From NCBI GenBank assembly GCA_900319525.1, contig ONOU01000001.1, forward strand, positions 248,001 to 312,000: DNA of 64,000 nt. Reading direction: 5' to 3'. Made by a program: the position numbers and the translations under genes. Numbering within the stretch: position 1 is the stretch's first letter; every line of letters starts with the position of its first letter. The notes under the pieces were generated by a model. The model saw only the letters and a list, made by a program, of their open reading frames with translations. It was not told where the DNA came from and did no database searches. The DNA is from an uncultured Prevotellaceae bacterium (lineage in GTDB: Bacteria; Bacteroidota; Bacteroidia; Bacteroidales; Muribaculaceae). Positions 46,985 through 62,307 of this stretch are shown here, in pieces.

Positions 46985-47000
46985 TGGTCACATTAAAACA

Positions 47001-47374
47001 CAGTATGGCGGCTTGTCGCTCGTTAACACTCATGGTTGCGAGAGGAAAGTCCGGGCAACACAGAGCATCACATTTCTTAACGGGAAGCTACGGGCGACCG
47101 TAGGGTTAAGGTGACAGAAAATTACCGCCGCTCCCTCACGCGTGAGATGAGCGGTAAGGGTGAAAAGGTGGAGTAAGAGCCCACCGGGCACTGTGGTGAC
47201 ACAGCGCGCCGCACTACCTGTGAGTTGCAAGTTCATGTATACCGGCACCCAAGGGCTGCTCGTCCATTGCCGGGGGGTAGAACGCTATACCGGCGCAGCA
47301 ATGCGCAGGACAGATAAATGACAAGCACCTGCCATCAACAGTGCAGGCACATAACCCGGCTTACAGCCATACTG
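47001..47374 (+). ncRNA. rnpB: RNase P RNA (type A, Bacteroidetes)
   Basis: The catalytic RNA that removes 5' leaders from pre-tRNAs. The ends pair as helix P1: CAGTATGGC at 47001-47009 with GCCATACTG at 47366-47374. The conserved core words are present: GAGGAAAGTCCGGGCA near 47040, ACAGAA near 47115, GGTGAAAAGGTGGAGTAAGA near 47160, GACAGATAAATGAC near 47310 and ACATAACCCGGCTTACA near 47350. A T-run directly after P1 (47375-47381) ends transcription. A consensus promoter lies just upstream. The short open frame on the other strand here is not a gene. Confidence 0.97.
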
Positions 47375-47441
47375 TTTTTTTAATTGTTATCAAGGTCACG
47401 TGAGTGCCCTAACTACTGTGAGAAAAGACCAAAATAAAGAT

Positions 47442-58945: not shown

Positions 58946-59190
58946 TACTTTTGTAGCCCATTCTGGAAAGATCTTAAAAAGAAAGTCTGTGGATTATAGA
59001 GCGTTTTACCATACTTGAAGCAGCAAATCAGACTATCGTGATTGGTAAGCGGGAAGCACTATTGCCAGGACACATCCATGAATTGCCTCTTTTACCTGCT
59101 AGCGGTATGGTAGATTCAGCCCACGCTCTTGTTTTTTAACCCGGGTGCTGCAAGGGTTGAGCGCATCCACCCTTAAAAACTATAAACTTT
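58946..59190 (+). promoter_or_regulatory. Promoter and long structured 5' leader of the LRR-dockerin gene
   Basis: A -7 box TACTTTTG (58946-58953) starts a ~230-nt leader without an open frame. Complementary segments ACCATAC/GTATGGT and AGTCTG/CAGACT suggest a folded RNA. Its last ~87 nt (from GGTATGG at 59104) align with the leader at 60544-60629: both contain ATTCAG(C/T)CCACG, then GGGTGC, GGG, TGAG, CCA and TTAAAACTATA in the same order and near-equal spacing. The region from 58725 to the promoter otherwise holds only the promoter of the minus-strand repeat gene. Confidence 0.7.
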
Positions 59191-60222
59191 ATGAAGTTTT
59201 TACATTTCTCTTCTAGAGCGATCCTACTGGCTATCGCTATGTGTTTGTCTGTGATGTCTCAAGCACAGGAATTTGATGTCAATGGTATTTTTTACTATCT
59301 CACCGGCGACAACACCGCAGCCGTGACTTACCCGTCCTATGGCACTTACAGCGGCACCATTACCATCCCCAGTGAGGTAACTGCAACCGTTTACCCGATG
59401 TATGAAGAGCCGTATGAAACGACCGTCAAAGTCACTGCCATTGGCTCATACGCCTTTGAGAACTGCACGGGCGTTACCGCCGTCAATCTTCCCAACACCA
59501 TCACCGAGATCAGCGATGGCGCATTCTATGGTTGCACCGGACTTACCGGCATCAATTTGCCCAATGGCCTGTACTACATTGGTGAGAGCGCCTTCAGCAA
59601 CAGCGGACTGAGGTCAATATCGATACCTGAGAGCGTTTATCAGCTGGGATGGAATGTGTTTTACAGTTGCGAAAGCCTTACCGAGGTCACCCTTCCCAAC
59701 TCCATCACCTCGTTGCTTGGCACGTTCAGGTTCTGCACGGCTTTAACAACCATCAATATTCCCAGCAGTGTCACTTTACTGAATAACACATTTGCCGGCT
59801 GCACCAGCCTGAAGGATATCACGATTCCCAACTCGGTGACCCTGATCACTAACCAGGCCTTCTATAACTGTGATGGCCTGAAGGACATCACCTGCCTGTC
59901 GCTGACCCCTGCCCGTGTCAGCCACTCAGATTGCTTCTACTCGGTGCTTGACCTCTATGCCAACACCCTGCTCCATGTGCCTGCCGAAGCCATCGACGCC
60001 TACAGGAACGCCGATGTATGGAAATTGTTCAACAACATTATTGGCTTCGGCGAGAATCTGCCTGGTGACATGAACGGTGACGGCGAGGTCAACATTGCAG
60101 ACATCAATGCCATTATCAGCAACATACTTAGCTCTTCACAGGATCTGCACTACGACATCAATGGCGACGGAGAAGTTAACATCGCTGACGTAACTGCTAT
60201 TATCGACATCATCCTCAGTTAA
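59191..60222 (+). CDS. BspA-like leucine-rich-repeat protein with dockerin tail
   Basis: A 343-residue exported protein (signal peptide MKFLHFSSRAILLAIAMCLS to SQAQ). Residues ~75-260 are LRR_5/BspA-type repeats of ~23 residues, e.g. IGSYAFENCTGVTAVNLPNT, ISDGAFYGCTGLTGINLPNG and ITNQAFYNCDGLKDITCL. The C-terminal ~55 residues carry two dockerin-like calcium-binding repeats, GDMNGDGEVNIADINAIISN and DINGDGEVNIADVTAIIDII. BspA-like LRRs act in adhesion in Bacteroidales. The dockerin tail suggests attachment to a cohesin-like or other partner not seen in this window. It has a long leader and a terminator shared in sequence with the next gene. Confidence 0.88.
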   Translation: MKFLHFSSRAILLAIAMCLSVMSQAQEFDVNGIFYYLTGDNTAAVTYPSYGTYSGTITIPSEVTATVYPMYEEPYETTVKVTAIGSYAFENCTGVTAVNLPNTITEISDGAFYGCTGLTGINLPNGLYYIGESAFSNSGLRSISIPESVYQLGWNVFYSCESLTEVTLPNSITSLLGTFRFCTALTTINIPSSVTLLNNTFAGCTSLKDITIPNSVTLITNQAFYNCDGLKDITCLSLTPARVSHSDCFYSVLDLYANTLLHVPAEAIDAYRNADVWKLFNNIIGFGENLPGDMNGDGEVNIADINAIISNILSSSQDLHYDINGDGEVNIADVTAIIDIILS

Positions 60223-60246
60223 TCACAGGAGCACACAACGACTTAT

Positions 60247-60281
60247 AAAACAAGCGGGCTAAAAGTAGTCCGCTTGTTTTT
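60247..60281 (+). terminator. Intrinsic terminator of the LRR-dockerin gene
   Basis: AAAACAAGCGG pairs with CCGCTTGTTTTT. It differs from the terminator at 62272-62307 at one base in 35. Confidence 0.9.
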
Positions 60282-60314
60282 GTTGTTTCAGGGCAAAGAA
60301 AAAGTCTTGTTTTA

Positions 60315-60345
60315 TTTGATGCATTAAATAATTTCGTTAATTTTG
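60315..60345 (+). promoter_or_regulatory. Consensus promoter of the second leader
   Basis: TTTG (60315-60318), 19 bases, TAATTTTG (60338-60345). A full Bacteroidetes consensus that starts a ~280-nt leader. Confidence 0.78.
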
Positions 60346-60349
60346 CGAG

Positions 60350-60629
60350 CGATTGCGAGGTCATGATATGACCTGCAGTCAAGACATGTGAGTAACAATA
60401 AAGCGTTTTGCTTTTCGCTCTTCCTTGAGAACCTGAGAAATTCAACTGGAGTCACGAATAACAGCAAAACGGTTTCTGCGCTATATGCGTGGACCGTTAT
60501 TTGTACATCTGTGACTCAGGTTTTCTCAGGACCTTCAAGGAAAGGTGTGGCAAATTCAGTCCACGTCTTTCATAAATAGGGTGCCATTTGGGCTGAGTGG
60601 TATCCAAACACTTAAAACTATACATAGCT
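60350..60629 (+). promoter_or_regulatory. Long structured 5' leader of the duplicated-domain dockerin gene
   Basis: A ~280-nt leader with no open frame. A nested fold is supported by four successive complementary pairs: CCTTGA/TCAAGG (60423, 60535), CCTGAGAA/TTCTCAGG (60432, 60523), GAGTCAC/GTGACTC (60449, 60511) and AACGGT/ACCGTT (60468, 60493). A separate GGTCAT-gat-ATGACC hairpin precedes it near 60359. The 3' ~86 nt (60544-60629) are homologous to the leader before the LRR-dockerin gene. Function unknown; a cis-regulatory RNA is the likeliest reading. Confidence 0.7.
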
Positions 60630-62069
60630 ATGAAAAAGATTTTACTATTGATGTTGATGCTCATATCCACAAGTATGATGTGGGCTGTTGAGCAAACTCC
60701 ACCCCCTGAAGTTGAATGGGAGGTTACCGATGATAGCGTCATCATCCGTGCCTCTGGTGAGGGCGAGGTAATCCTTTATGTGTCGGATGAAGTCGTCGAG
60801 AATCCTTACGCTATTGCAAGAGAAGATGAGGATTACACTGTGTTTGCTTACGCTACAGCACAGGCCGAAGGCATGACCATCAGCGAACCCACAGTTAAGG
60901 AAATAACTATTCCCAAGTCCACTAAACCGCACGATCACGAACACGGTTGCTGGCTACTGATGCTTGACCGCAACAATAATGAGATATGGAAAGAGATGTT
61001 GCATGATTATTCTGGAGATTATAGTTGTATACAACGCATGAATTGTTATATCTTCGGTTGCTCCTATTACTGGGATTCGCAACTCTACGAGTTCAAACCT
61101 ATTGATTGGAACATCCCTAGCCGAAACTATCAAGGTAAAGAGGACATCATCACCTACGACGCTCGGTTTTGCTTTGTAATTGACGGTGTGAGATACGGAC
61201 CAGAAAAGAACTATACTGAAGTAACGTTCGGCAACGCTCTATCTAATCCATTAGTAAGATCAAACAACTTCTACACTATGATGACCGGCACTATCGTGAA
61301 TGTGGGAGTGGCATTTGATGATGATGGAAAAGCCTATGCATACGTAGGACAAGTTGGCTGGGATGGTGGACCTGCTTATCTATCTGATAAAGATAACTTC
61401 CCTGACCCGCACAAGGTAGGCTGCTGGCTGCTGATGCTTGACCGCAACAATAATGAGATATGGCAACAGATGGAGTTTTACGACGGTGATTACATTTGTT
61501 TTTTAGAACCATATTGTTATATCTTCGGTTGCACGTATTTGTGGCACTCCTATTTCTGTGATTATACACCAATTGATAACAATATCCCTAGCAGACCTTT
61601 TTATCTTGATTATCTTGGATATCCTAATTATAGTAATCTTATTGTTAATGACGCTCGGGTATGCATTGTAATTGATGGCGTGAGATATGGGCCAGAGGAG
61701 AACTATAGTGAAACTGTTCCCGCGGATGCACTAGCCAATCCATTAATTGAAACGAACAACTACTACACAATAATGACTGGCTACAAGTCAAATTTCGGGT
61801 TAGCATTTGATGATGAAAGAAATGCCTATTTATATCTTGCCTTTGGTGGTTTTGGGGGGAGCTCTTTACCCTTCGAAAAGAATTTCCCTGCCCCTCTATT
61901 CATTACAGGAGATGTGAATTGTGACAATGAAGTGAACATTGCAGACGTGAATGCTCTTAGCGACATGATCTTGAGTGGTAACTCCAGCAGTATTGGTGAC
62001 GTTAATGGTGACGGGGAAATCAACATTAGCGACATCAACGCCATCATTGACATTATCCAAGGACACTGA
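60630..62069 (+). CDS. Exported dockerin-tailed protein with internal tandem duplication
   Basis: 479 residues from the ATG at 60630, which opens a signal peptide (MKKILLLMLMLISTSMMWA); 11 upstream in-frame codons lie in the conserved leader. After an N-terminal Ig-like part (WEVTDDSVIIRASGEGEVIL) the protein contains two copies of a ~158-residue domain. Each starts GCWLLMLDRNNNEIW (at ~107 and ~265), then has CYIFGC(S/T)Y, DAR(F/V)C(F/I)VIDGVRYGPE and a closing YTxMTG. The nucleotide words match for 31 bases at an offset of 474. The C-terminus has two dockerin repeats (GDVNCDNEVNIADVNALSDM, GDVNGDGEINISDINAIIDI). I do not recognise the duplicated domain. The gene is less G+C-rich than its neighbours, which may indicate transfer or surface-protein evolution. 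Confidence 0.82.
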   Translation: MKKILLLMLMLISTSMMWAVEQTPPPEVEWEVTDDSVIIRASGEGEVILYVSDEVVENPYAIAREDEDYTVFAYATAQAEGMTISEPTVKEITIPKSTKPHDHEHGCWLLMLDRNNNEIWKEMLHDYSGDYSCIQRMNCYIFGCSYYWDSQLYEFKPIDWNIPSRNYQGKEDIITYDARFCFVIDGVRYGPEKNYTEVTFGNALSNPLVRSNNFYTMMTGTIVNVGVAFDDDGKAYAYVGQVGWDGGPAYLSDKDNFPDPHKVGCWLLMLDRNNNEIWQQMEFYDGDYICFLEPYCYIFGCTYLWHSYFCDYTPIDNNIPSRPFYLDYLGYPNYSNLIVNDARVCIVIDGVRYGPEENYSETVPADALANPLIETNNYYTIMTGYKSNFGLAFDDERNAYLYLAFGGFGGSSLPFEKNFPAPLFITGDVNCDNEVNIADVNALSDMILSGNSSSIGDVNGDGEINISDINAIIDIIQGH

Positions 62070-62271: not shown

Positions 62272-62307
62272 AAAACAAGCGGGCTAAAAGCAGTCCGCTT
62301 GTTTTTT
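62272..62307 (+). terminator. Intrinsic terminator of the second dockerin gene
   Basis: The same hairpin as at 60247-60281, with one base changed in the loop side, ending in TTTTTT. Confidence 0.9.

Follow-up and report, generated by a model that had tools for sequence, protein, structure and literature searches.

Bacteroidota are dominant bacteria of the gut, and to our knowledge few cis-regulatory RNAs are known in them. Processive antitermination leaders, such as EAR of Bacillus and the UpxY system of Bacteroides, are related systems with cis-acting leader RNAs before surface or secreted products, as in the present case. For Bacteroides thetaiotaomicron, the accessible part of one study (PMC7366714) gives 13.5% of mRNAs a 5' untranslated region longer than 100 nucleotides (nt), with a predicted riboswitch in ~2% of those. 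FopS (RF04319) and GibS appear in the available portion of a second study (PMC11697453) as small RNAs of Bacteroides. Here, we describe a family of structured 5' leader RNAs, two copies of which lie in a 64,000-nt stretch of DNA (the window) from an uncultured Prevotellaceae bacterium (contig ONOU01000001.1, positions 248,001 to 312,000). Comparison of sequences across the family establishes the predicted fold of the leader, its place, and selection for its pairing.

In 5'-to-3' order, the layout consists of a -7 promoter box, a small hairpin (P0) and a GACAT motif (both recognized by eye), a rod of seven stacked helices (P1 to P7) spanning ~175 nt, a U-rich linker, a hairpin (P8), an A/U-rich spacer, and the start codon. 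The P8 loop is predicted to pair with a 3' bulge at the base of the rod, between P2 and P1, forming a pseudoknot. A small hairpin at the place of P0 was seen by eye in many copies. From their sequences, the two leaders in the window represent a canonical copy (leader 2) and a divergent copy (leader 1) of one structured RNA. Their features are given below in window coordinates, where R2 denotes a covariance model built from 42 aligned rods.

58946-58953, + strand: -7 promoter box of unit 1, TACTTTTG, read from the sequence
58993-59129, + strand: leader 1 rod domain, divergent copy (R2 match, E 3.8e-6; also a partial seed row)
58999-59004, + strand: leader 1 P1, 5' strand GAGCGT, pairing with 59123-59128
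59005-59014, + strand: leader 1 P2, 5' strand, pairing with 59105-59114 (10 consecutive pairs, one of them G-U)
59116-59122, + strand: leader 1 pseudoknot strand TCAGCCC, pairing with 59154-59160
59143-59168, + strand: leader 1 hairpin P8 (GGGTGC...GCATCC), with loop GGGTTGA at 59154-59160
60338-60345, + strand: -7 promoter box of unit 2, TAATTTTG, read from the sequence
60351-60380, + strand: leader 2 5'-terminal hairpin P0, present in the centroid fold
60395-60569, + strand: leader 2 rod P1 to P7, canonical copy (R2 match, E 1.2e-38; itself a seed)
60401-60406, + strand: leader 2 P1, 5' strand, pairing with 60563-60568 (98.0% of cells paired)
60407-60411, + strand: leader 2 P2, 5' strand, pairing with 60550-60554 (92.9% of cells paired)
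60421-60428, + strand: leader 2 P3, 5' strand, pairing with 60535-60542 (both-side changes in 8/8 pairs)
60432-60439, + strand: leader 2 P4, 5' strand, pairing with 60523-60530 (96.3% of cells paired)
60449-60455, + strand: leader 2 P5, 5' strand, pairing with 60511-60517 (both-side changes in 7/7 pairs)
60468-60498, + strand: leader 2 P6 and apical hairpin P7 (91.3% and 96.6% paired)
60556-60562, + strand: leader 2 pseudoknot strand TCAGTCC, within the 3' bulge between P2 and P1
60579-60605, + strand: leader 2 hairpin P8 (GGGTGCCA...TGGTATCC), with loop GGGCTGA at 60590-60596

An earlier note on this DNA, a reading of the letters without database searches, had described -7 boxes before two genes, noncoding leaders of ~230 to 280 nt whose last ~86 nt align by eye, proteins unrelated apart from a dockerin tail, and complementary segments farther upstream, and had read the whole as a cis-acting structured RNA. 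These observations held up. Both boxes, which are of the Bacteroidota type, are present, and the leaders measure ~237 nt (unit 1, ATG at 59191) and ~284 nt (unit 2, ATG at 60630) from box to ATG. Local alignment of the last ~86 nt gave a score of 33, compared with a maximum of 22 among shuffles (n = 1000). By Pfam, the product of gene 1 contains LRR_5 and Dockerin_1, while that of gene 2 contains Dockerin_1 only. Complementary segments occur in leader 1 (TTTTACCATAC with GTATGGTAGA; GAGCG with CGCTC), and leader 2 contains the long rod. The upstream parts of the leaders could not be aligned beyond chance (score 19, reached by 125/1000 shuffles), and blastn between the units, run with an E cutoff of 1, did not list the leaders among its matches. 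Leader 2 folded more stably than its shuffles (z = -4.46; 0/100 as stable); leader 1 alone folded no better than shuffles (z = -0.69; 47/200 as stable), its sequence retaining P1, P2, the pseudoknot, and P8 with a diverged distal arm. The pairwise signal between the leaders is thus modest, and certainty comes from the family search. Three features go beyond the earlier note, namely the pseudoknot (TCAGYCC with GGGYTGA), the role of leader 2 as the canonical form, and a terminator-like hairpin common to both units.

Exact-pattern searches for the 3' block gave, among the matches listed, only the two window copies and apparent chance matches. With an E cutoff of 0.5, a small covariance model built from the two 3' blocks (R1) found matches in 60 of the 101 genus genomes; the strongest one outside the own genome had an E of 2.3e-12. 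Reading of these matches revealed the full-length conserved leader. R2 is genus-seeded, and its significance was judged by rough E-values. At E up to 0.01 it matched 84/101 genus genomes, a tally that includes its seeds, with ~240 matches in all and 1 to 10 per matching genome. At the level of the order, matches with E up to 0.001 occurred in 125/393 genomes drawn (76/207 genera), and at the level of the phylum, matches with E up to 1e-4 occurred in 26/395 genomes drawn (14/171 genera); 23 of these 26 genomes belong to the same class but to different orders. Because the order and phylum scans scored seven candidates per genome, their copy numbers should be read as minimum values. Four copies pass the 0.01 cutoff in the own genome, namely leader 2 (1.2e-38, a seed), C12:213827 (7.9e-15), C50:1712 (3.8e-12), and leader 1 (3.8e-6, the partial seed row). 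The covariance model and Bacteroidales search that the earlier note had proposed yielded copies well beyond the window. That note had also named a lack of copies elsewhere and a lack of covariation as grounds for giving up its cis-acting reading; both were examined and neither turned out to apply, and the reading is borne out by the ~240 genus matches, by the covariation and constant position between promoter and start codon set out below, and by the lack of an Rfam 15 match to the leaders.

To assemble the rod alignment, 74 loci (L157 to L230) were searched and 47 full-length matches were aligned. Two of these (L173 and L188) were dropped as poor, a 95% identity filter reduced the remaining 45 to 41, and leader 1 was added to give 42 rows. 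Mean pairwise identity among the 41 rod copies, all from one genus, was 66%. Across the 44 rod pairs, 93.8% of cells were paired and both-side changes were found in 27/44, counts that are biased toward the structure, which was drawn up with the counted sequences in view. Covariation reached 0.368, compared with 0.181 after shuffling (0/500 as high) and at most 0.091 when partners were slid.

For the pseudoknot, all 135 copies were kept, misses included. The pseudoknot strand fitted its own downstream region with a mean score of 15.1, compared with 12.35 (standard deviation [SD], 0.19) for swapped regions and 10.4 for shuffled ones; the highest mean among 200 swaps was 12.94. Scores of at least 13 were obtained for 102/135 copies, versus an average of 56 when swapped, and at least five and at least six consecutive pairs were present in 121/135 and 102/135 copies, respectively. 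The pair types include CAGTCC/GGACTG, CAGTTC/GAACTG, CAGTTCC/GGAACTG, CAGTGCC/GGCGCTG, TTGGCTC/GAGCCAA, GGACTC/GAGTCC, and CTGGCTC/GAGCCGG. A structure-blind MAFFT alignment was also made from 85 partly selected rows (the two window leaders and 83 of 113 loci). In it, the seven pseudoknot pairs were paired in 94.4% of cells, a value biased upward because the 30 omitted loci include some near-duplicates and some known to lack a good pseudoknot; covariation was 0.361 versus 0.208 shuffled and at most 0.142 slid. The P8 stem scored 11.85 with its own partner and 9.08 (SD, 0.25) when swapped, in a sample restricted to the 94 copies past a pseudoknot score filter. Taken together, comparison across the family indicates that rod, pseudoknot, and P8 all covary.

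As judged by sequence alone, the structured element lies between the promoter and the start codon of the same gene. A TANNTTTG box occurs within 140 nt upstream in 141/160 copies (11% in shuffles), with an interquartile range (IQR) of 47 to 54 nt from box to rod. An open reading frame (ORF) of at least 60 amino acids (aa) follows on the same strand after 150 of the 163 distinct rods, which include at least two weak, spurious-looking reverse-strand matches (L270 and L172). The longest ORF that began within 15 to 230 nt of the rod was used, and the distance to its start has a median of 57 nt (IQR, 53 to 63 nt). The start codon follows the pseudoknot loop at a median distance of 23 nt (IQR, 20 to 27 nt; 94 copies), and a Shine-Dalgarno-like motif was found in only 10/94 copies. 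TTTTT occurs between the loop region and the start codon in only 7/113 copies, which speaks against termination, and attenuation by an intrinsic terminator was rejected on this ground. Directly upstream of the -7 box, an inverted repeat was seen by eye in four loci (L266, L267, L269, and L274), with differing sequences and similar placement; it is perhaps an operator or an upstream terminator.

Six copies (L268, L272, L274, L281, L296, and L297) share a stretch of 208 to 231 nt that starts near the -7 box and extends as far as the rod does. Identity over this stretch was 89 to 96% in all 15 pairs and at least 92% in 11 of them. Four of the copies come from four families (f59, f60, f22, and f113) and two from Tannerellaceae and Bacteroidaceae plasmid records, the latter possibly coinciding with some of the former. 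The genes behind the six differ except for L272 and L297, whose match continues through a shared gene; L281 has no clear gene. Because such nearly identical promoter-rod modules are found in more than one family and on plasmids, and the genes behind them mostly differ, horizontal spread is indicated, in which promoter and leader would move together between families and attach to new genes. Since promoter, rod, and P8 are self-contained, such a module could work before any gene.

The downstream proteins are heterogeneous, and a crude hydrophobicity rule classed them as exported at twice the rate of controls. The rule marked 99/130 nonredundant proteins as exported looking, compared with 15/42 window ORFs and 18/57 ORFs of plasmid and viral loci (minimum size, 60 aa for the test set and 120 aa for the controls). 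Several N termini resemble lipoprotein signals by eye. Family scans covered 125 of the 130 proteins, which matched 76 Pfam families. The earlier note had said that many further copies before dockerin or leucine-rich repeat (LRR) genes would support its reading; many copies were indeed found, but they are not specific to such genes, as LRR_5 was found in 16/125 proteins and Dockerin_1 in 6/125. TerB and an outer-membrane barrel family were each found in three, DarT, Beta-lactamase2, and GmrSD_N in one each, and the NCBIfam family HxsD in three. On a Parabacteroides distasonis plasmid (L296, 4001-4245), the leader stands directly before a DUF4433 (DarT-type) gene, and on Bacteroides uniformis pBUN1 (L299, 4001-4260), it precedes the class A beta-lactamase gene blaMUN-1.

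Some recurring arrangements were also observed among the downstream genes. In nine loci (L265, L273, L275, L277, L289, L302, L306, L307, and L311), the leader is followed by a recurring exported protein that carries a motif resembling DVTKFLGIPVDG; the L307 member, scanned alone, had no Pfam match. Tandem leader-gene units with different genes, as in the window, occur in L314 and L333. In other orders of the class, the rod was seen by eye before small proteins of recurring types (L367, L369, L368, and L387), an example being FWKFFQCWVT in L367 and L369.

We consider it about an even call that the leader acts in cis, with the pseudoknot gating expression of accessory, mostly surface genes and the rod serving as a docking site for a factor. 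RNA polymerase would start at the -7-box promoter, as the box suggests for the transcript, which would open with the small 5' hairpin and then fold into rod P1 to P7. The 3' bulge at the rod base would pair with the P8 loop, whose strand ends ~23 nt before the start codon, placing the pseudoknot at the upstream edge of the position of an initiating ribosome. There, it could gate ribosome loading or the fate of the mRNA. A cellular factor may bind to the conserved internal loops of the rod and so shift the pseudoknot; a protein or the ribosome is a likelier candidate for it than a metabolite of some pathway. In this way, a single signal could govern scattered accessory genes, most of them for exported proteins.

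Several results weigh against this proposal. The predicted openness of the start region did not differ between real and shuffled leaders (0.503 versus 0.495; 60 copies, P = 0.79; nested folds only). A strand-exchange switch between internal GCGTGGGCTG and terminal CAGTCCACGC was rejected, as it showed no covariation (own, 19.6; swapped, 19.8), and no competing fold was found, this single candidate helix having been tested without a systematic search. In the structure-blind alignment, the number of pseudoknot pairs changed on both sides (five) was matched by 107/500 shuffles, and the outermost pair was open in 24 of the 58 rows with letters. Fourteen of the 135 copies, including L178, L180, L182, L268, and L269, lack five consecutive pairs; thus, the pseudoknot is not needed everywhere. 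Finally, no common pathway was apparent among the 25 Pfam families inspected (of 76).

A serious rival, although one we consider rather unlikely, is a leader that works constitutively, loading ribosomes or shielding the mRNA, without sensing anything. It would explain why many kinds of genes stand behind the leader and how the leader survives transfer between families as a portable module, and it suits the fixed distance from pseudoknot to start codon, the A/U-rich spacer, and the scarcity of Shine-Dalgarno-like motifs. The lack of any predicted gain in start-region openness over shuffled leaders counts against it, and a ~175-nt rod with conserved internal loops seems costly for a mere spacer. 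We regard as unlikely a strict metabolite- or ion-sensing riboswitch in which the rod is the aptamer and P8 with the pseudoknot is the expression platform. The architecture matches, with conserved loops, covarying stems, and a pseudoknot near the start codon, but the large size, the variety of downstream families without a common pathway among those inspected, and the failure of the one candidate helix to provide a competing fold all argue otherwise. We hold it very unlikely that cleavage frees the leader to function in trans as a small RNA and that the gene behind it is of secondary importance: a conserved multicopy RNA with its own promoter box would be in keeping with this, but the start-codon distance is narrow, the pseudoknot strand is coinherited with its downstream partner, and U runs are few. 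Least probable of all is a DNA-level repeat, such as a recombination site or an element like a miniature inverted-repeat transposable element (MITE), that merely resembles RNA, since its support from near-identical copies in different families and on plasmids is opposed by compensatory changes (including G-U pairs) in nested stems and pseudoknot, by the constant order of promoter, rod, P8, and start codon, by a common stretch whose start lies ~50 nt upstream of the rod, close to the -7 box, and not at the end of the rod inverted repeat, and by a narrow spacing to box and start codon in place of the gene-independent position of a MITE or a repetitive extragenic palindromic repeat.

The units to which the two leaders belong further comprise the following.

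59191-60222, + strand: gene 1, a BspA-type LRR protein with a dockerin tail (343 aa) and a signal-peptide-like N terminus
60251-60276, + strand: terminator-like hairpin downstream of gene 1, common to both units
60630-62069, + strand: gene 2, a 479-aa exported protein with a dockerin tail
62276-62301, + strand: terminator-like hairpin downstream of gene 2, common to both units

At up to two mismatches, the terminator-like hairpin occurs twice in the whole genome, once after each gene. The blastn matches between the units comprised the dockerin region (83% over 52 nt) and this hairpin (95% over 39 nt). The two are probably duplicated units with differing middles, and because leader, dockerin region, and terminator are common while the middles of the genes differ, domain or cassette exchange between them is suggested. 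Dockerin-like matches to the gene 2 protein seem very numerous in the own genome (151 first-look candidates; 26 scored, all 26 matched), and many span only its C-terminal dockerin part.

A large and often multicopy leader family, present in 125/393 order genomes, would explain part of the gap in cis-regulatory RNAs of these bacteria. Should the leader sense a signal, the surface and accessory genes behind it would form a regulon; should it be constitutive, it would be a natural expression module, showing how translation starts in bacteria where Shine-Dalgarno sequences are few. Both the sensing and the constitutive reading can be tested directly with the covariance model and the pseudoknot pairs. 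Beyond the cis-acting gate proposed above, we tentatively raise the possibility, which we hold to be somewhat doubtful, of a phylum-wide mobile module in which promoter, sensor rod, and pseudoknot gate move as a unit and bring newly acquired surface, defense, or resistance genes under one RNA-sensed signal or a dedicated RNA-binding protein.

As far as sequence models can tell, the leader family is uncatalogued, matching no RNA family tested. In the window and 25 family loci, no Rfam 15 family reached its gathering score over any leader, and when the E cutoff was relaxed to 10, all matches fell far short of the gathering scores. Outside the leaders, Rfam matches were RNase P (class A, RF00010, window 47000-47379), two tRNAs (L284), and rteR (L380). 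FopS was rejected, as its best match, on L274, reached 16.5 bits against a gathering score of 56 (E 4.2). Flavo-1, named at 5' regions in the accessible part of PMC9723704, was suspected and likewise rejected, the 15 phylum-scan loci having no Rfam match on the rod. In the literature searched, a scope outside which most subscription journals and bioRxiv preprints fall, no description of the family was found. Antitermination leaders of the EAR and UpxY type act on long operons, while the leaders here have a narrow relation to the start codon. Flavo-1 (RF01705), Bacteroidales-1 (RF01693), and Bacteroides-1 (RF01694) are likewise conserved RNA motifs of Bacteroidota (accessible part of PMC2864571), but none reached its gathering score in the window or the 25 family loci. 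The 64 structured 5' regions of Flavobacterium psychrophilum, compared here by description, resemble the leaders in structure, and several lack Rfam matches; single family members could be among them, although the available portion of that report (PMC9723704) does not describe them as one family. FopS and GibS, as far as the text consulted goes (PMC11697453), are similar in forming a multicopy Bacteroides RNA family with canonical sigma-ABfr promoters, the FopS sequence also being reported in a phage; FopS differs in its length of ~65 to 70 nt, its action in trans, its single-stranded 5' seed and its terminator, and its chance-level match here. Riboswitches and orphan cis-regulatory motifs (e.g., the 104 motifs in the same accessible part of PMC2864571) share the structured 5' leader and the pseudoknot near the start codon; the present family differs in its lack of an Rfam 15 match, in the heterogeneous genes that it precedes, and in a promoter and leader that have apparently spread horizontally.

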